From the IMG/VR virus record IMGVR_UViG_3300031857_000997, positions 1-29,436 of that record: 29,436 bases of DNA. One strand, 5' to 3'. Every line of letters starts with the position of its first letter. Within the stretch, counting starts at the first letter, position 1. This document shows, piece after piece, positions 2,424 to 28,465 of this stretch. Source of the DNA: a virus. A program made the position numbers and the translations under genes. The notes beneath the pieces are model-generated. The model searched no databases. It was not told the DNA's origin and was given only the letters and a program-made list of their open reading frames with translations.

Positions 2424-3278
2424 CTATTCTTGGAGGATATAGTCGCCACCATATTTATTTATTACATCGTTTCTTAGCATAACACCCCAGGCATTTTTAT
2501 CAGAGATCTGACAAGCAGCATAGTTAACGAACAGTGTTACGTAATCCTTACCATCTGCAGCGTGTGGACCAAAGCGGTTCTTCACTGCAGCTACCTTCAA
2601 CTCACCGTTGGTTGGGTCATAACCCAGCGTCAGGATCAACGCCGGCAACTGACTTACCTTGCCGTGAATAGCACGTCTAGCAGGTGGCTGAGATGGTGAT
2701 CCATACTCACTCTGCTCAGATACGTGATGTAGCACAAGTACGCAGGCTTCAGTCTTACGTGCCATATCGTGCAGCTCCATCATAATCGCACGTAAGCCAG
2801 CCCACTCATTGTCAGTCTCTGCTGCCACATTCATTAAGTTGTCTATGACAATCAACTCTGGAGCGTGGCCGTAGAGTTCTACATATGCTCTGATCTCTAA
2901 CTCGATATCATCTAGTGATGGTGATGAATCAAAGACCCACTTGATATGTTCCAACTTGCCAAAGTGTTTGTCGTAGTAGTGCTTATCCTTAGATAGGTTC
3001 GACTCTACTGATACCTGTGAGTGACCAGATGCAGCAGATGCTGCTCTCATCATTACAGTTGTTGTATCAGTATCTGCCGAGAAGAAAAGAGTTGGCACAT
3101 CTGCCTTCATCGCATAGATGAGAGCAAACATAGACTTACCAGCGTTAGGTGCTGCAGCTACCATACAGACTTGTCCTCTTCGGAACTTAATCTGCTTGAG
3201 TGCTAAGCCCTGCCACACGTCCGGAAGAGGTGTTGCTTTGGTAAGCACCCCACTCCAAGCACGTGATAAGTCAAGCAA
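2424..3278 (-). CDS. RecA/DnaB-fold replicative ATPase (helicase-like)
   Basis: 284 residues with a P-loop AAAPNAGKS (G47, K48, S49) and a Walker B ELIVIDNLMN (D146), followed by VLVLHHVSEQ, a sensor-like segment typical of DnaB/RadA-family proteins. It lacks the N-terminal domain of full DnaB and resembles the single-domain DnaB-like or RepA-like helicases of actinobacterial phages. It probably unwinds the fork with the split primase. The start is a TTG at 3278 that overlaps the end of the WhiB gene by 8 bases; AGGGGG lies six bases upstream and no in-frame ATG is better placed. Helicase versus recombinase (RadA-like) cannot be decided from motifs alone. Confidence 0.8.
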   Translation of the reverse strand: MLDLSRAWSGVLTKATPLPDVWQGLALKQIKFRRGQVCMVAAAPNAGKSMFALIYAMKADVPTLFFSADTDTTTVMMRAASAASGHSQVSVESNLSKDKHYYDKHFGKLEHIKWVFDSSPSLDDIELEIRAYVELYGHAPELIVIDNLMNVAAETDNEWAGLRAIMMELHDMARKTEACVLVLHHVSEQSEYGSPSQPPARRAIHGKVSQLPALILTLGYDPTNGELKVAAVKNRFGPHAADGKDYVTLFVNYAACQISDKNAWGVMLRNDVINKYGGDYILQE

Positions 3279-3537
3279 TGCCTTCCCCCTTTAATGTTAT
3301 GCGTCGTTTACGTCTGATTAACCTGCGTTCACCTTCAGCAACGCCACCCCAGATACCGTGCTGCTCATTTTGTATTCCCCACTCAGCACACTCTGCTTGA
3401 TGTGGACACCTTCTACAAATTGATTTAGCCATAACCATCTCGGTTGTGTTAGAACTTCCGGCCTCCTTTTCAGGGAACCAGAAGTCGCCACCGACTGTAG
3501 CGCAAGCAGGATTCTCATAGAACCTTGGCTCGCGCAC
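3271..3537 (-). CDS. WhiB-family Fe-S transcription regulator
   Basis: 88 residues with the four WhiB cysteines (C12; C41 and C44 in CRRC; C50 in CAEWG) and the family GIWGG turn at residues 61-65, followed by a basic RRLIRRKRR tail. WhiB-like proteins bind a 4Fe-4S cluster and act on transcription through the housekeeping sigma factor; they are restricted to Actinobacteria and their phages, so this is the best host indicator here. Phage copies can silence or replace host WhiB proteins. Start is GTG at 3537, with no convincing Shine-Dalgarno. It is embedded in the replication operon between the Cys/His protein and the ATPase, suggesting early expression and redirection of host transcription. 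Confidence 0.93.
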   Translation of the reverse strand: MREPRFYENPACATVGGDFWFPEKEAGSSNTTEMVMAKSICRRCPHQAECAEWGIQNEQHGIWGGVAEGERRLIRRKRRITLKGEGIA

Positions 3538-3540
3538 CGA

Positions 3541-3921
3541 TCATCGGACCCAGATAGTTTCGCACTTGTCTGTCGCACCCTTTGGTGCAGCACACATATG
3601 ACCCTTCCAAGATTTACCCTGAGCATTAGTGCCTTCACGATATGTCATTGCTCCGTGACGGCAGGTTTGACCAGAAATGCCAGAAATGTCAATAGCAACT
3701 GGTGTTGCATTAAAGGCTGCAGCTACTGATGCAACTGTTGGTGCTGGTGCTGCTGCTGTGCTTGCACCTAGTTCGACACCTGTTGCCTTGATGTTAAGTG
3801 CGTTCATAGCAAGATCTGCTAGTCCCGCTTCTAGTTCTCCAACTGTTGCAGCATAAAGATTGATAAGTGTTCCATCAGATAACTTGTAGTTAACCTGGAA
3901 CTTTGTTCCTTCTGTAGCCAT
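3541..3921 (-). CDS. Hypothetical protein with C-terminal Cys/His module
   Basis: 126 residues. The first half (FQVNYKLSDGTLINLYAA, then VGELEAGLADLAMNAL) looks like a small alpha/beta fold; an alanine/proline-rich linker follows (TAAAPAPTVASVAAAF); the end carries CRHGAMTYREGTN, GHMCAAPKG and KCETIWV, i.e. C, H, C, C in a zinc-ribbon-like arrangement. GGAGG just before the ATG, in the end of the Cas4-like gene, is a strong ribosome site. The position next to the Cas4-like nuclease suggests a nucleic-acid-binding partner such as a single-strand binder, which is inference only. Confidence 0.7.
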   Translation of the reverse strand: MATEGTKFQVNYKLSDGTLINLYAATVGELEAGLADLAMNALNIKATGVELGASTAAAPAPTVASVAAAFNATPVAIDISGISGQTCRHGAMTYREGTNAQGKSWKGHMCAAPKGATDKCETIWVR

Positions 3922-4878
3922 TTACTTTCCTCCACTTGGTTTGATGTTTAATCTGGCAGTTTCTAGCCCTACACTTACTGGGACATAACCAATAAGTTCT
4001 TTAACTTTATCTTTGTCAACTGTCTCACGACCTTTAACTTTTGTCCAACTGATTTCAATACCACTGGCTGTAACACCAACGGTTCCCTCGAAAGAACTCT
4101 TAATTGAATCTCTTTGCGTTTCTAACTCTTTGATCTTTGCATCTAATTGTAGAAAGTGCAAGGCGTTCTTGTCAATCTGCTCGTCCTCAATCACTATTTC
4201 ACTAAGGACGATATGTTCTTTTTTTAAGCCAACACAACCCATCGTTCCTGATGCGTCATAGTACTGACAGTAATGCTTGCAGAAAGATTCATCCTTCTCA
4301 GGTTCTGGAACAGTCTCCATCTTCTTGATCTCAGTTAACCACTCCATAGCCTCTAGTGCAACATCTTCATCGTAAGGTTCTGAGTGAACCTTGACATCCT
4401 TCTCAGCACCATCACGAGCTATAGCAACTAGGTTCACAGTGTTGACTGTGTGACCATTCTGCGATAGCAGATAGCCATAGATCTGCACCTGCCAACGCTG
4501 TTGCTTTGATGGGAAGTAAGAAAGGTTCTTGACCTTGCTTGTCTTCCAGTCAATGACTGCTCCGGTGCTAGGTATAAACAAGTCCACGTGTGCTTTCATA
4601 TCACCGTGTGCTACTGCAGTTTCTACTAGGTAGTCCTTGCCATCTGGATCTAGGTGACCGATTGCTTCTTCGATTGCAGCGTGGATAGCAGTACCCATAA
4701 TTGCTGCCAGCTTTGACTGGTTATCGTTGGTATGTGGCTGTCCGTTCAATCGGTACCAGACCTTACGACGGCAACCACCAATCTCTGATGGACCTACCTG
4801 TGTCTGAGTACTGCGATCACGAGAGGCATCCTTAGCGTGGAGCACTGTTAGTAGCAGTTCCTTGGGATCTGTAATCAT
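3922..4878 (-). CDS. Cas4/RecB-like PD-(D/E)XK exonuclease
   Basis: 318 residues. RecB-nuclease motifs appear in order: GGCRRKVWYRLNG (C36), AIHAAIEEA (H66, E70), HVDLF (D99), VIDWKTSK (D110, K112) and the QVQIYGY motif. Three more cysteines, CKHYC and GC (C200, C204, C215), with C36 give the one-plus-three cysteine layout of Cas4/AddB-type Fe-S nucleases. A C-terminal coiled segment follows (KIKELETQRDSIKS). Related phage proteins act as DNA exonucleases in recombination or end processing; no CRISPR locus is present here. The stop neighbourhood carries the Shine-Dalgarno of the next gene, and the start overlaps the 53-residue gene (ATGA). Confidence 0.82.
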   Translation of the reverse strand: MITDPKELLLTVLHAKDASRDRSTQTQVGPSEIGGCRRKVWYRLNGQPHTNDNQSKLAAIMGTAIHAAIEEAIGHLDPDGKDYLVETAVAHGDMKAHVDLFIPSTGAVIDWKTSKVKNLSYFPSKQQRWQVQIYGYLLSQNGHTVNTVNLVAIARDGAEKDVKVHSEPYDEDVALEAMEWLTEIKKMETVPEPEKDESFCKHYCQYYDASGTMGCVGLKKEHIVLSEIVIEDEQIDKNALHFLQLDAKIKELETQRDSIKSSFEGTVGVTASGIEISWTKVKGRETVDKDKVKELIGYVPVSVGLETARLNIKPSGGK

Positions 4879-5036
4879 TGCGGGTTCCTTACGATAAATG
4901 CAGCACCTGGATAGTTGGCTGCTTCTAACTGTTGTGCGATCTGCTCACGCAGTTCTATCTCCATAAAGACCGGAGTTGCTGATCTACGACCAGATTGTAT
5001 TGCTTCCTCTATCGCATAGCTAAGTGTCTTTTCCAT
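4875..5036 (-). CDS. Small hypothetical protein (53 aa)
   Basis: The product begins MEKTLSYAIEEAIQSGRRSA and contains a helix rich in E and Q (MEIELREQIAQQLEAAN). Its ATG shares one base with the stop of the 28-residue membrane ORF (TAATG) and its TGA overlaps the Cas4-like start (ATGA), so it is almost certainly translated as part of the chain. No family is recognised. Confidence 0.65.
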   Translation of the reverse strand: MEKTLSYAIEEAIQSGRRSATPVFMEIELREQIAQQLEAANYPGAAFIVRNPQ

Positions 5037-5122
5037 TATCGGTTATCTCTATACTGTAGAAAAGCATCTAAGGCATACGCTAGTACAAAGCCAAACAGTA
5101 ATCCAAATAAAAATTCGAGCAT
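5036..5122 (-). CDS. 28-residue single-pass membrane peptide
   Basis: The peptide starts MLEFLFGLLFGFVLAYAL and ends in the charged YRDNR, i.e. one hydrophobic helix of about 18-20 residues with a short hydrophilic tail. AAAGGA lies 8 bases upstream of the ATG and the stop is a TAATG overlap with the next gene. It starts 4 bases after the proteasome-like gene ends. It could be a tiny inner-membrane regulator or an anchor; no family is recognised. Confidence 0.55.
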   Translation of the reverse strand: MLEFLFGLLFGFVLAYALDAFLQYRDNR

Positions 5123-5126
5123 TATC

Positions 5127-5681
5127 TTATCCTTTCTGTTGAGTAACTAATTGAATCGGAGGACAGGTGTTCACGTCAAGTACCGACGCGATCTTTATTG
5201 CGCGTTCTGCTACTACCTTAGACATAAGCAGGGACTTGTAAGAACCAGGTTTGAGTGAGTAGAGGTAGCCCAGAGCAAATGCTCCACCACTACCTGCTGT
5301 AAAGAGTCCACGTTCACTGGCGTTGAATGATAGATCTGATCCGATGGAAAATAACATCCCATTGAAGGCAATGAGGTAGGCGAAGTTAGCTTCCTTATCG
5401 GATGGGTCGTATCCATTATCCTTAAAGGCAGCGTAGATACTTGGCAGTATCTTCTTACCCATCCACTCCACCGGATCATAGTTCTTATACGTTGGTGGTT
5501 TCCAATTAAACGCGAGGATATCTCCAGGTCTTGAGTCGCCCGTGATACCTATCAGGTAGTCACCTACGCTTACGATCTTAGGTGTCTGAGTAGAAATAAT
5601 GCGCTGATCGTTATCGGTGATCTGCGAATCAGCAGCTAGTACTACGAAGTCAGGTCCTTGGATACCTACCAGAGTTGTCAT
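5127..5681 (-). CDS. Proteasome beta / HslV-like N-terminal-nucleophile hydrolase
   Basis: 184 residues, about the size of HslV. It starts MTTLVGIQGPDFVVLAADSQ, closely matching the start of HslV and mature proteasome beta subunits; removal of Met would expose Thr as the nucleophile without a long propeptide. Family active-site positions can be traced: T2, D18, K35 (in TPKI), S131 in TAGSGGAFALG, and D169 in LDVNTC, with Thr172 where proteasomes usually have Ser169. It is the first gene of the leftward early operon. It could form its own peptidase ring, as HslV or Anbu do, or mix with the host 20S proteasome; no ATPase partner is encoded nearby. The family call is strong, the role inferred. 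No Shine-Dalgarno precedes the ATG, consistent with a leaderless transcript. Confidence 0.88.
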   Translation of the reverse strand: MTTLVGIQGPDFVVLAADSQITDNDQRIISTQTPKIVSVGDYLIGITGDSRPGDILAFNWKPPTYKNYDPVEWMGKKILPSIYAAFKDNGYDPSDKEANFAYLIAFNGMLFSIGSDLSFNASERGLFTAGSGGAFALGYLYSLKPGSYKSLLMSKVVAERAIKIASVLDVNTCPPIQLVTQQKG

Positions 5682-5693
5682 TGGCAGATCATA
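5682..5693 (-). promoter_or_regulatory. Candidate leaderless promoter of the early operon
   Basis: On the minus strand a TATGAT hexamer at 5693-5688 lies six bases before the ATG at 5681. Transcription normally begins about seven bases after the -10, which here is the A of the ATG. No Shine-Dalgarno is present. Leaderless mRNAs are common in Actinobacteria. No good -35 is visible. Confidence 0.5.
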
Positions 5694-5700
5694 TCACGGC

Positions 5701-6486: not shown

Positions 6487-6530
6487 AAAAAAAGAAGCCC
6501 CCCACCCAGGATTTCTCCTGAGCAGGGGGC
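6487..6530 (-). terminator. Intrinsic terminator of the late operon
   Basis: On the minus strand a 15-bp stem with a few G-U pairs spans 6530-6497. It closes on a GAAA tetraloop (AGGA-GAAA-TCCT at the tip) and is followed by TTCTTTTTTT. It lies just after the last late gene and faces the plus-strand terminator. Confidence 0.9.
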
Positions 6531-6554
6531 CATTGCCTCGCGCTTATGGGCTAA

Positions 6555-16069: not shown

Positions 16070-16075
16070 ATTATA
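16070..16075 (-). promoter_or_regulatory. Candidate leaderless promoter before the glycosyltransferase
   Basis: A perfect TATAAT on the minus strand spans 16075-16070 at the very end of the collagen-like gene; 8 bases separate it from the ATG at 16061. This spacing would start the transcript at or next to the ATG. A convincing -35 is not seen, so chance is possible. Confidence 0.4.
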
Positions 16076-17081
16076 CTATGTCTCCGACGATCAAGAAGGT
16101 GTTGCTCGCCGTACAGATCACCGTGGCGGCAGACTTATTAGTTCTCAACTTGGGAGCAGTTGTTGTGGCACCAGTTGAAAGGATAGTAACTCCAGCACCT
16201 TGAGCAAAGGTCACTTGACCTGCTCCGTATTGGACTATGTGGATCTGGTCATTAGCACTAAAGACTGATGGTGGCACTGTAAGGGTAATAGCAGCAGCGT
16301 TATTAAGAGTAACGATATCGCTGAGATCGCCAATAACAAGTGTGTAAGAAGTACCAGTCTGGGTATTAAACCCTGCGATGTTACCAACACCAGTAGCGCC
16401 AGTTGGTCCGGTAGGACCAGTTAAACCTGTTGGTCCTGTAGGACCTGTAGCACCAGCAGGTCCAGTAGCACCTGTTAATCCCGTAGGTCCAGTAGGGCCG
16501 ATGTCACCCGTAGCACCGATAGGGCCTGTAACACCAGTAAGACCAATAGGTCCCATATCTCCTGTAACACCTTGTGGCCCTGTGGCTCCTGTAGGCCCTG
16601 TAGCACCTGCTGGACCAGTAGCACCTGTCACACCTGTTGTACCAGTAGCTCCATCTGGACCAGTAGCACCTGTGGCTCCTGCTGGTCCTGTGGCTCCTGT
16701 AGGACCTGGAACAACGCTGTCAGCACCCGTAGGACCTGTAGGTCCTGTGGCTCCTGTAGCCCCTGCAGGCCCTGTAGCGCCCGTAGGACCGGCAACTGTG
16801 CTATCAGCACCAGTTGGGCCAGTAGCACCTGTAACGCCCGTAGGACCGGTTGCACCAGTAGCACCTACGCCTGTAGGTCCAGTATCACCAGTAGCACCTG
16901 TTGGGCCTGTGGCACCTGTTACACCAGTTGCACCAGTTGCTCCTGTGGGGCCAGTTGCACCGACAGGACCACTAGGACCAGTTGGACCTGTGGCTCCACC
17001 GATACCTTGAGGACCTTGCTGTGCTGAGAATACTAAGGATTGGTTCGGGGTAATAGATTCAATAACTACATAAGTGGTCAT
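16071..17081 (-). CDS. Collagen-like tail fibre protein
   Basis: 336 residues. After a 22-residue N-terminal strand segment ([16 protein letters not shown]), residues 23-233 are Gly-X-Y triplets, mostly [14 protein letters not shown] and GPAGATG, the form of bacterial and phage collagen-like trimers in which threonine often replaces hydroxyproline. Residues 234-336 form a beta module ([13 protein letters not shown] to TFLIVGDIV) homologous by eye to the end of the fibre at 13249-14094. It likely makes a stiff triple-helical shaft with a C-terminal trimerisation or contact module. Threonines in such repeats are often glycosylated, and a glycosyltransferase gene follows directly. Its start overlaps the previous gene (ATGA). 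Confidence 0.88.
16383..17015 (-). repeat. Collagen-type triplet repeat tract
   Basis: About 211 codons of GGN-NNN-NNN periodicity (9-base unit), seen on the plus strand as repeated CCTGTAGGACC and CCAGTAGCACC variants. It can change copy number by slippage. The plus strand gives an open frame of GPV-type triplets over the same tract, which is a by-product of the periodicity. Confidence 0.85.
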
Positions 17082-23629: not shown

Positions 23630-26600
23630 TTAGTCCAACAACCTTCCGAATAAAGAGTCATATGCTGCAAGTGTGTTTTCATTAAACTGTGATAGTTCCT
23701 TGAGTTTAATTATTGTGCTATCTTTTTTAGATCTTGCAAGGAAATCAGATCCACCAAAACGATCAAAGTTTTCTTTCTCTTTCTTGTAAGCAAGATATGT
23801 GTCAAGCATTTTCTTAAGAGCATCAAACGTCTTAGGACTTCTTGCTCGAACACTGTTATTTGCAAGCATTAACTCAAGATCGTTAAGAGCATTGATTCTT
23901 TCAATTTCCTTCTGACCGCCAGCATTAAGTTCTTCTGCTACCAATGGACGTCCAGCAAAGAATAGTTCTTTCCAGTCACTAAACTCTTTACGTAATTTGC
24001 TGCGAGTATAATCAGTTGCAGCTGACTCTAAACCGCTTTCGTATTCATCTTTACGATCATAGTATGACTGTAGATCTGCTGATGTTTGAATCTTACGTAG
24101 ATGATCTTCTACTCGCTGGTTCTTGCGTAGACCCATATCAGTCATAGTCTTATAGGCATCCCAAGAGAAACCACCCTTGTTAGGAATAAGGAATACTGCT
24201 GCCTCTGGATATTCTTTAAAGATACTTTCGTTTTGTTCTACAAACATACCGGCTTCTTCAGCATAACCAAAGGAAGCAACTGTAGATCTTTCAGATTCTG
24301 GAACAGTAAAAGGTATTTGATTAGGGTATAGTTCTACCCAACGCTTCATTGCGTCGTCGTAATCAACATATTCATCTTTAAGATCATTCCACAACTGCTT
24401 AAAGTTAGCACGTCCATTGTCACGAACCCACTCGTTCATATCTGATTTGAGCTGAACTTGAGGTGATGCGGGAGCAAAGAATCCAAATACAAAGCGCATA
24501 CCCAAAATACCTAGGGTAGTATTCTTTACCATTAGGCGGTACTCTTCAAGTTGCTGAGCAGATGGTGGAATAAGATTTCCTTCTGCATCATAACTCTTAG
24601 GAATACCGTGTCCTGCTGCCTCAAGGTAGGTAACTGCCTTGCGGTGTGCTGATGCGTACTGTGAGTCACGCTCGTCACGGCCCATTGCACCGATTAAACG
24701 GTTGACGTGTGCCGGTAAAAATGCTGAAGTTACAGGTTGATCTACTGCATACTTACCTAAAGTATAACGAGTAATCGTATCGGCTGCGCCTGGGCTAAAG
24801 ATATTAACAATACTTTCAAGAGTCTTGATAGAAATACCAGCAACGGGTCCAGCAAAGGTAGGAACAAGTGAATCTGGATTTAAAGATGGGGTTAACATCT
24901 TAACCTGAGCACCAAACTGAATAGGCATTGGTGCTCTAAACTGTGATCCAATACCTAAACCGTCAAGCATCTTCTGCATTGCGTTATATACAGGTTCAAT
25001 TCCTGGGTAGATAAAGTACTTTTCACCTTGATCGTCTTCTTGTACGAAACCAGAGTGAGTAATTCCCTCATATGTCAAGGCTGCTATAGCGATTGACTCT
25101 GGGTTGTACTTAACAGCACGACCAACACGACGATAAAAGTCCTCAGTGGCACGATAGAAGCGTGCAAAGTTACGAATCGAGAAAGACATCTGTGAACGAA
25201 CTAGCGGATTGTCAATATATGCAAGAGTTTGTCCAATAGCACGCTCTTCTACTACTGTGGCTAAATCACGCTTAGCCTTTTCAGTAGCTTGAAAAACAAG
25301 TTCTCGTTCTGCTGGGTTAATACCCTTAGTGTATGAGGCAATCCACGCATCTTCAAAGCCTGACTTACGCATTTGCCTACGAATATCTAGCATTTCAGAT
25401 ACAACAATAGGCTGACGTGACATACGGGCGTTAGCCATACCCAGCCAGCGCCATCCATTTTCCATAAATGTTGCACCCATATTGCCTGTATTAGTTACAG
25501 GTACAAGTTGTGGTCCAATTACACTTCTTGGTAGATCCATATCATCTGCTGTGCGAAGATCATCTAATGATATCTTGCCAGATACTACATACTCACCATT
25601 GTCATCAAGGGTGCGAACCTTGTTGAGAAGATCATCATTAAGTATTGTAACGCCATTGGCATCTACTCTGCGTGTTTCAAATATTTTGCGGGTGCGATCA
25701 TAAACAAGACGAGCGTGCTCATCAATACTGATACCCTTAGCCTTAAGAAGTGACTGGTTTACAATGTCTGGGTTTTTTCCAAGATAGGCACGGATTGCTG
25801 CAATAGCAGCCTCTGGGTTGTCAAGGTTTGCGACAGCCAAAGCACCTAGTTCATCATTAGAAACGTATGAAATGCGAAGTAGCCAGGAAACAAGTGATGC
25901 TTCATCCTGATTAGTTATACCAATAGTCTTAAATCCAAGAGTATTTGCATCACGACTGTATTGTTGTTTAGGACCGGTAATGCGTAGTTCTGCTGAACGT
26001 ACTCCGTGCGCCTGGGTAAACCCTACTGCGCTAGTGAGAAAGTCTGATCCTGTAGCAAAGTTAAAGCCACCTTCTGAAATAACAGATAAGAAGTTCTCGA
26101 TGTCGCCATAGATGATCTGTTCTGTAAGGAGTTCTACCGCTTCCTCGTTCATTGGCTTGCGACCTTGTGATTTCAGGAAGTTATTAACACGTCCTCTAGT
26201 AAGAGCACTTGCCATAATCTCACGTGTTTGACGGACGATATCAACATCTGTTTCTTTACGCAGTTGAGCAATTCGATTCTTTGCAGCGTTGATAGTTGCT
26301 TCGTCTGTAGACTCTTCGATTGTTTTACGAAGTTCTTTAATTTCAGCTTTGCTTGTAGTGAGTTTAAGATCAAGCGCCTTGATCTCATCTGCGTAGCGAG
26401 CAGCCTCGTCTTTATTAACAATACGCATAACAACACCTAGTGGACTATTTGCCAAGTTCTCAAATGCTCCAGCACCACGTGCTTCTTGCAATGAGGTAAG
26501 TACACGTGTAGTCAGACGACGGCTACTTGCAACTCCCCAAGGAGATACACCAATAGCAAGACTAATCATAAGATCTTCAACAGAGTTACGAATAGCATAA

Positions 26601-28465
26601 CGTGGGCCAGCAAGAGTAAGGAATGACCAATATCCAACTGTCTTTTCAAGAAATGTACTATTTGCAATCGGACCAATAATCTTTTGTCCTAGTGTACTTC
26701 TTGCAGTAAGGCGATCAATGTCTCTTAGAGTTGGAACTGTAACTATGCTACTAAAGTCTGTAGCAAATGCACCGACTTCATCTAGTGCATTATCATTGTT
26801 ATCAAATTTAGCCTTACCTTTACCTGCCATAGCACGACCTACGCTTTGGGTAGGTTCAGTTGTGTTGATGCCACGAATATCAGATATGTTAGCCATAATG
26901 CCATCAAAAAATTCTTTTCGCTGGCCTACATCATCAATGCCACGAAATACTTCTGCTGCTAACTTAGCTTCACGTTGTGGAAACACTAGGCGTGATAGGC
27001 GATAGATATACTCTGGTGCTTTAGTGTCAAGAAGATCAAACTGATTGTCCCTAAACATAGGTGCAATAGCAAAGCGTTGCTTAAATCGGTCAATACGGAC
27101 ACCAATATCTGCTGTAGAAAAACGCGCTACGCCAACTTTCTTGGTCTTATTAAGAGCGTCTACTGTCTCTACGATTTGTTCACGGCCTTCTGTGATGGCC
27201 TTATAGATACCAGCATCTGTTGCATCTTCACCAAAGAATGATGCGTTAACAAGAGCCGGTCCTACTTTATCAATGTTAAATATTCTATTAGCCGTAGTCA
27301 AAGTGGCAACTCTAAGTTTGCGAGCCTCTGTCATACGTGGCGCAATAATGCGGCGACGACCACCTGCGCCCGTAATCATCTCATCCATTTGTTTTGCATT
27401 GGAAAAAAATGCTTTGGCGGTAAGAACGTCTTCAATAGGCTCTGCCGCCTTATTAAATGTTTGAATAACTGCTGGGCCAAACTCAGGGGCAAGAGTCTTC
27501 ATCTCTTCAATAAGACGAGCTTTGGTTACAGTATCTTGTACTTCATCGGCTTTGCGATAGGCTTTAAGTTTAGCGCCGTATTCATTCCAGAATGTAGCAG
27601 TCTTAGGCTGATCGAAGTATTTTGCAAATGCAACACCATCACGTGCTGCGCTACCTGCAATAACTTCTACTGAATACTTAGAAATATCATATAGTTTCTT
27701 TACTTTACCACCAACAATAAGTGGATCAGCAAAGATTCGATATGCAGCATCTACTGCTCCTGATACTGCCTTGTAGAAAAATCCAGATCCTTCGTATTTC
27801 TCAGGAATAAATAGGTTTGCTATGAAACGACCAGGTGAGTACTTAGCTGCTTGAACAGCATCCATTGTATCTTGAAAGAGATCTTGTTCTTCCTTTGTAC
27901 CTTGGGTCTTATCGTAAAGTTTAAGATACTTAAGTTGCTGAGGTGTAGCCTCAGCAATAATTCTACCTTGATCTTCACCCGATGCAATACGTATAGCGAT
28001 ATCAACAGCAGTAGGATCAAATAGTTCCTTAGCACGTTCAATACGACCTGGGCTAAATACTTTGTCACCTTTATCGTTGGCTATATCCCAAGCCTCGTTA
28101 AGATTTACCTTTTGATCTCCTGCAACTAAAACAGTACGAGCAAGGCGTGTAGAAAAATCTGAAACATTCTGAAGTCCTGCAAGACCTTTACCTAACAGAT
28201 CAACTACAGCTCCACCAGTATAGTTCCAAGCAGTAGATAGCCAACCTTCATCCGGTTTTTCAACTGGAGTTTCAGTGCCATATTGTTGCTTTAATGAAGC
28301 CTGTTGTGTAGGTGTATATTTAGCATACTGCTGTTGGGCTAGATCATTAGGAAGAGAAGTGAGTTGTTTGTGGGCCTTAAGGGACTTACTGTAAGCCTCA
28401 ACCCTTTTTCTATCTTCTGCCGCCAACTTAGCTGCATAGGCTGCTGATGAAATATTATCAGCCAT
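23630..28465 (-). CDS. Giant virion protein (1611 aa), probable internal or ejection protein
   Basis: Mostly helical. It starts ADNISSAAYAAKLAAEDRKR and has a hydrophobic helix pair near the N-terminus (NYTGGAVVDLLGKGLAGL), a central membrane-like stretch (VGYWSFLTLAGPRYAI, DLMISLAIGVSPWGV), a coiled coil (ALDLKLTTSKAEIKELRKTI) and a late hydrophobic segment (TLGILGMRFVFGFFAPA). No catalytic motif of a lysozyme, transglycosylase, polymerase or ADP-ribosyltransferase was recognised. Length, helical texture and amphipathic stretches fit large ejected core proteins of short-tailed phages (T7 gp16-like in role, not shown to be homologous). Its ATG shares one base with the previous stop (TAATG). 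Confidence 0.55.
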   Translation of the reverse strand: MADNISSAAYAAKLAAEDRKRVEAYSKSLKAHKQLTSLPNDLAQQQYAKYTPTQQASLKQQYGTETPVEKPDEGWLSTAWNYTGGAVVDLLGKGLAGLQNVSDFSTRLARTVLVAGDQKVNLNEAWDIANDKGDKVFSPGRIERAKELFDPTAVDIAIRIASGEDQGRIIAEATPQQLKYLKLYDKTQGTKEEQDLFQDTMDAVQAAKYSPGRFIANLFIPEKYEGSGFFYKAVSGAVDAAYRIFADPLIVGGKVKKLYDISKYSVEVIAGSAARDGVAFAKYFDQPKTATFWNEYGAKLKAYRKADEVQDTVTKARLIEEMKTLAPEFGPAVIQTFNKAAEPIEDVLTAKAFFSNAKQMDEMITGAGGRRRIIAPRMTEARKLRVATLTTANRIFNIDKVGPALVNASFFGEDATDAGIYKAITEGREQIVETVDALNKTKKVGVARFSTADIGVRIDRFKQRFAIAPMFRDNQFDLLDTKAPEYIYRLSRLVFPQREAKLAAEVFRGIDDVGQRKEFFDGIMANISDIRGINTTEPTQSVGRAMAGKGKAKFDNNDNALDEVGAFATDFSSIVTVPTLRDIDRLTARSTLGQKIIGPIANSTFLEKTVGYWSFLTLAGPRYAIRNSVEDLMISLAIGVSPWGVASSRRLTTRVLTSLQEARGAGAFENLANSPLGVVMRIVNKDEAARYADEIKALDLKLTTSKAEIKELRKTIEESTDEATINAAKNRIAQLRKETDVDIVRQTREIMASALTRGRVNNFLKSQGRKPMNEEAVELLTEQIIYGDIENFLSVISEGGFNFATGSDFLTSAVGFTQAHGVRSAELRITGPKQQYSRDANTLGFKTIGITNQDEASLVSWLLRISYVSNDELGALAVANLDNPEAAIAAIRAYLGKNPDIVNQSLLKAKGISIDEHARLVYDRTRKIFETRRVDANGVTILNDDLLNKVRTLDDNGEYVVSGKISLDDLRTADDMDLPRSVIGPQLVPVTNTGNMGATFMENGWRWLGMANARMSRQPIVVSEMLDIRRQMRKSGFEDAWIASYTKGINPAERELVFQATEKAKRDLATVVEERAIGQTLAYIDNPLVRSQMSFSIRNFARFYRATEDFYRRVGRAVKYNPESIAIAALTYEGITHSGFVQEDDQGEKYFIYPGIEPVYNAMQKMLDGLGIGSQFRAPMPIQFGAQVKMLTPSLNPDSLVPTFAGPVAGISIKTLESIVNIFSPGAADTITRYTLGKYAVDQPVTSAFLPAHVNRLIGAMGRDERDSQYASAHRKAVTYLEAAGHGIPKSYDAEGNLIPPSAQQLEEYRLMVKNTTLGILGMRFVFGFFAPASPQVQLKSDMNEWVRDNGRANFKQLWNDLKDEYVDYDDAMKRWVELYPNQIPFTVPESERSTVASFGYAEEAGMFVEQNESIFKEYPEAAVFLIPNKGGFSWDAYKTMTDMGLRKNQRVEDHLRKIQTSADLQSYYDRKDEYESGLESAATDYTRSKLRKEFSDWKELFFAGRPLVAEELNAGGQKEIERINALNDLELMLANNSVRARSPKTFDALKKMLDTYLAYKKEKENFDRFGGSDFLARSKKDSTIIKLKELSQFNENTLAAYDSLFGRLLD

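Follow-up and report, generated by a model that had tools for sequence, protein, structure and literature searches.

Which task does a protein of the proteasome family fulfil in a phage? This question is raised by an open reading frame at positions 5127-5681 of the window, i.e., the whole stretch of 29,436 nucleotides of viral DNA analysed here (IMG/VR record IMGVR_UViG_3300031857_000997). The original prediction had named its product a proteasome/HslV-type Ntn hydrolase, and this was borne out by two family matches and by the predicted fold; its phage origin was upheld as well. The strand, missing from that prediction, is minus: the gene starts with an ATG at 5681-5679, stops at 5129-5127 and encodes 184 amino acids. 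Reading 5127-5681 on the plus strand was ruled out by 8 stop codons. Pfam family PF00227 was matched with an E-value of 8.5e-7 (29.2 bits at a cut-off of 22.4), and PHROG 1040, the “peptidase HslV family”, with residues 1-181 (78.1 bits, E-value 1.7e-21). These were the sole family matches; none was obtained with the known prohead-protease families. A reading as defence gene was rejected, as a PADLOC match was missing. When a profile of 8 phage relatives was compared with PDB chains, nearly full-length matches were found to HslV (7e-8), a ring built from beta subunits only, and to BPH (7e-7), while 20S beta chains ranked after both. HslV thus provided the best sequence-profile match in the PDB and shares the exposed Thr1. 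Nevertheless, the window protein is not a standard HslV: the NCBIfam equivalog model TIGR03692 gave 22.8 bits, far under its cut-off of 157.75, and HslU is missing from the phage. The archaeal-beta model of NCBIfam matched weakly and also far under its cut-off, and the actinobacterial PrcB model TIGR03690 gave no match to the window protein. Overall, the profile searches placed the protein inside the proteasome family, a point on which the original prediction could have failed. Judged by its sequence, it resembles the homo-oligomeric HslV/BPH group more closely than actinobacterial PrcB.

After removal of the initiator methionine the N-terminus reads TTLVGIQGPDFVVLAADSQ. Numbered from there, the catalytic positions are Thr1 (codon 5678-5676, minus strand), Thr2, Asp17 (5630-5628), Lys34 (5579-5577), Gly47, a GSGG motif with Ser130, Asp168 and Thr171. 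Lys34 lies one residue past the canonical Lys33 of proteasomes. Conservation was analysed in two sets. The best 80 of 149 relatives on viral contigs, representing 63 distinct sequences, formed the close-relative set, in which Thr1, Thr2, Asp17, Lys34, Gly47, Ser130, Asp168 and Thr171 were all invariant. The wider set of 117 distinct proteins covered two sister clades, the second of which was found with the protein of the Planktophila phage E7. There, Thr1, Thr2, Asp17, Lys34 and Gly47 were still invariant, while a Thr at the place of Ser130 and Asn or Ser at the place of Asp168 were tolerated. The catalytic match claimed at the outset is therefore solid for Thr, the first Asp and Lys. Its Ser varies, to Thr only, and its C-terminal Asp is a feature of the close relatives, not of the wider clade. 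Pairwise dN/dS values of the gene were mostly about 0.05-0.2, indicating purifying selection, and together with the invariant residues they rule out a neutral or dead gene. With its active site intact, the window protein is apparently catalytically competent, a prediction made from sequence.

In nearly all loci the start codon stands immediately before the Thr codon, so that methionine removal is the sole maturation step needed. Both claims of the original prediction on this point, the lack of a propeptide and maturation by methionine removal, thereby held up. The start codon abutting Thr1 also sets the window protein apart from PrcB. The exceptions are a few alleles with an insertion, in which an HNH/EndoVII-like endonuclease gene takes the place of the usual promoter (L039, L048, L060, L068, L070 and L080). 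In these six loci the end of the endonuclease gene overlaps or abuts the Ntn start, and the codon before Thr is TTG, ATC or ATA, with the Thr codon still next.

The AlphaFold2 model of the window protein (pLDDT 89.8, pTM 0.86) showed a proteasome-subunit fold, as did that of a sister-clade member (pLDDT 90.2). A beta sandwich and two helix pairs are predicted, so the fold gave no ground to refute the original prediction. The four helices of the window model span residues 50-58, 70-88, 133-142 and 151-168. Between the last two, the window clade has about 14 residues which are missing in the sister clade. Using Foldseek, the best PDB matches for both phage models were chains of BPH (PDB 5ovs/5ovt/5ovu; TM about 0.78), followed by HslV and 20S subunits; E-values of these matches for the window model ranged from 1e-9 to 1e-12. 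BPH forms a homo-tetradecamer without a known unfoldase, binds epoxomicin and uses the proteasomal mechanism (PMC5777263). Like the phage protein, it lacks a known unfoldase partner. However, identity is 16-20% only, and the BPH gene is a bacterial, chromosomal one.

These data bear on the idea that the protein joins host proteolysis, either by replacing or mixing with 20S subunits or by docking on a host unfoldase (Mpa/ARC, Clp). Many actinobacteria possess 20S proteasomes and unfoldases, and an unfoldase is missing from the products of the phage itself, which speaks for this idea. Still, the sequence profile puts HslV and BPH above 20S beta, the structure puts BPH first, and TIGR03690 does not match the window protein. 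Consequently, insertion into the host 20S proteasome, one of two options offered by the original prediction, was not supported, and we regard host proteolysis as a whole as a very improbable explanation. We judge a non-degradative Ntn hydrolase to be equally doubtful, i.e., a specific processing enzyme, a connectase-like ligase or a small-molecule amidase. A precedent exists within the superfamily, which includes the monomeric ligase connectase (PMC8665760), and the phage proteins are strongly diverged, sharing about 20% identity with HslV and BPH when the structures are matched. On the other hand, no residue of the full proteasome-type Thr/Asp/Lys/Gly core varies, and the model has the compact subunit shape of ring-forming group I members.

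Proteasome homologs of phages are already published and catalogued. PPH and AAH, both carried by phages, belong to the group I proteasome homologs; they have neither an AAA+ partner nor an assigned function (Fuchs, Alva and Lupas 2021, PMC8665760). PPH comprises about 140 amino acids and lacks helix H2, and no actinobacteria-specific phage carrying an AAH was found (PMC8665760). With 184 amino acids and four helices in the model, the window protein is not of the PPH type. PHROG 1040 contains proteins of Actinomycetia phage DSL-LC01 (“ATP-dependent protease subunit HslV”), Vibrio phage 2.058.O (“proteasome subunit”) and Arthrobacter phage Hum25 (“protease”). Its members share the Thr start and the catalytic positions with the window protein, and their genes usually lie among non-structural genes; the DSL-LC01 protein is 34% identical over 98% (tblastn). 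Compared to them, the window clade is distinct and well supported, and it is marked by a leaderless-looking promoter and a gene for a 28-amino-acid neighbour. In the literature searched, we found no account of this actinophage clade or of the two locations of its gene, of the leaderless-looking promoter or of the conserved microprotein, and no phage proteasome homolog with known function. Two further observations concern phages outside the clade. In Vibrio phage 2.058.O, a gene for a peptide deformylase (L249 1498-1995) precedes the proteasome-like one by three genes; the deformylase could help to expose the N-terminal Thr. In Aeromonas phage 2L372X (L255) the HslV-family genes 210 and 211 stand side by side, possibly encoding a two-subunit ring.

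Isolated relatives were identified via the major capsid protein (MCP). That of the window phage, which appears podovirus-like, was 44% identical over 95% to the MCPs of the “Ca. Planktophila” phages LanE43-AprE7 and AprF5 (E7 and F5), and 47% over 61% to those of Streptomyces podoviruses (Beephvirinae, e.g., Manuel). From these relatives we infer that the host is most likely a freshwater actinobacterium near Nanopelagicales, with which the WhiB gene and the G+C content of 45% agree. Nothing on proteasomes was found in the papers searched on acI/Nanopelagicales, and a genome scan for host 20S proteasomes yielded a single contig, from a gammaproteobacterial MAG. Phages E7 and F5 (OX376640, OX376641; PMC10202952) carry an Ntn gene whose product shares 31% identity with that of the window. 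The main text of the paper describing them mentions protein-degradation genes in general, does not use the words protease, peptidase or HslV, and does not discuss the Ntn gene as a proteasome homolog (PMC10202952). In the maximum-likelihood tree the window and E7 clades are sisters (95/91) and separate from other phage members; HslV and BPH group together outside the phage clade, in a deep part with long branches that is not for close reading. Exactly one Ntn copy was present in each of the 27 related virus records tested, E7 and F5 likewise having a single one. Genomes of the window type (G004, G012) are colinear with E7 across about 25 reciprocal best pairs, and depart from it in the Ntn gene, in WhiB and in two neighbouring genes that have traded places. 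WhiB was thus relocated too, lying at 38023-38376 in E7 (L129) and at 3271-3537 in the window.

The Ntn gene occupies two different addresses in these genomes. The isolated phages E7 and F5, and 79 of 80 related E7-type loci, have it directly after the portal gene, with a strong ribosome-binding site; in E7 and F5 it stands between portal and a PHROG 8200 gene within the head operon. In window-type phages it is the first gene of the replication/WhiB operon, despite a head module colinear with that of E7. The difference is most simply explained by a single move of the gene within the lineage. The non-structural placement is probably the older state, as the remaining actinophage members (DSL-LC01, Hum25, Pumpernickel and contigs L086-L088) sit outside head modules, several of them adjoining WhiB.

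The position behind the portal is the classical slot of a prohead protease, and none of the head genes examined could be recognised as another such protease. Could the Ntn protein be a morphogenetic protease, digesting the scaffold or trimming head proteins during capsid assembly? This job is otherwise done by serine-protease folds, and no prohead protease of the Ntn type was found in the literature searched. In window-type phages the gene belongs to the replication operon even though the head module is colinear, and other phage members have it outside the head modules altogether. Moreover, cleavage seems unneeded, given that the scaffold has its own gene and that the MCP lacks a long N-terminal extension. 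Finally, the capsid module of Manuel, homologous to that of the window phage, goes without any Ntn gene (profile search in all six frames), although Manuel also has a Cas4/DnaB/primase replication module. Hence, the Ntn gene is not tied to the virion module, and a role in capsid maturation appears unlikely.

The claim that the gene opens its operon was backed by the gene order and by an intrinsic terminator behind the late genes. This terminator (6496-6531, minus strand), a strong one with a 16-pair stem followed by TCTTTTTTTA, separates the Ntn gene from the late operon (tail/lysis), which ends there. Between the two, an extended -10 element, TGATATGAT, was found at 5688-5696 (minus strand), 6 nt before the ATG. 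The pattern TGNTATNAT-N6-ATG occurs once in the whole window at an expectation of 0.09, most related loci have the extended -10 element at the same place, and in 57 of 63 loci it is preceded by a GACACG box. Position and conservation point to a promoter. The standard sigma-70 scan of the window does not list it, since a -35 box at the usual distance is missing. From its layout, the putative operon transcript looks leaderless.

Directly 3′ of the Ntn gene follows a gene for a membrane-like, single-span microprotein of 28 amino acids, MLEFLFGLLFGFVLAYALDAFLQYRDNR (5036-5122, minus strand, as are all following genes). It is encoded in 62 of 63 loci under purifying selection (median pairwise dN/dS 0.12); a motif scan did not find it in E7 or Manuel. 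Next come a 53-amino-acid protein starting with MEKTLSY (4875-5036), whose gene overlaps the ends of both neighbours, a Cas4/RecB-like PD-(D/E)XK nuclease (3922-4878; PF01930 8e-9, PF12705, and PHROG 1674 exonuclease), a mycobacteriophage gp49-like protein (3541-3921; PF25690 4.6e-6), the WhiB-family transcription factor (3271-3537; PF02467 3.9e-15), a DnaB-like replicative helicase (2424-3278; PF03796 1.5e-14, PHROG 243 9.7e-75) and primase parts. No Rfam matches or tRNAs were found in the window, and at the nucleotide level the operon matched nothing in the phage collection. That no ATPase partner lies beside the Ntn gene was confirmed by a search for AAA+ proteins: no AAA_2 (HslU/Clp-type) protein was found in 8 phage genomes, the sole AAA match being the DnaB-like helicase of E7. 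The “early need” read from the first place in the operon is less convincing as a general rule, as the sister clade keeps the gene in the head operon. Accommodating both addresses, one lineage may use a morphogenetic protease behind the portal and its sister employ the protein early, with the 28-amino-acid microprotein tethering or regulating the ring; we consider this split quite improbable.

The family, the intact active site, purifying selection, the single copy, the operon, the absence of an AAA+ partner from the phage and the differing placement were seen directly. On this basis we favour an autonomous HslV/BPH-like threonine peptidase serving host takeover or proteostasis, to which we assign a probability of roughly 55%, inferred steps included. 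The host methionine aminopeptidase would expose Thr1, which would act as nucleophile, with Asp17 as orienting acid, Lys34 as base and Gly47 lining the oxyanion hole. By analogy to HslV dodecamers and BPH tetradecamers, the subunits may form a homo-oligomeric ring of 6- or 7-fold symmetry with inward-facing sites. Such a ring would need no special unfoldase from the phage: it would cut peptides or proteins that are already unfolded, or make use of an unfoldase of the host. For window-type phages, transcription of the replication/WhiB operon would begin with the Ntn gene, at a leaderless-looking promoter of its own. This arrangement makes host takeover or proteostasis more likely than a role in virion structure. 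The peptidase could remove proteins of the host or of its defences, dispose of damaged ones or release amino acids in a nutrient-poor host. Proteolysis as such, ring assembly and substrates are predictions, as is the timing, which is read from gene order only. What speaks against the autonomous peptidase is that in the sister clade the gene occupies the place where a capsid-maturation protease is usually encoded, and that the Lys stands one residue late.

With isolated members (the Planktophila phages E7 and F5) and natural variation in gene placement, this clade allows the role of viral proteasome relatives to be tested, and host takeover to be told apart from capsid maturation. The outcome would also tell how phages infecting the abundant, streamlined actinobacteria of freshwater handle protein turnover. 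Two other genes of the window, both on the minus strand, deserve mention. One, at 23630-28465, encodes a protein of 1611 amino acids in the structural region; it had no PHROG match, and its homologs in E7 and in the G004 type are 26-36% identical only. The other, at 16071-17081 in the tail region, encodes a collagen-like protein with Gly-X-Thr repeats.
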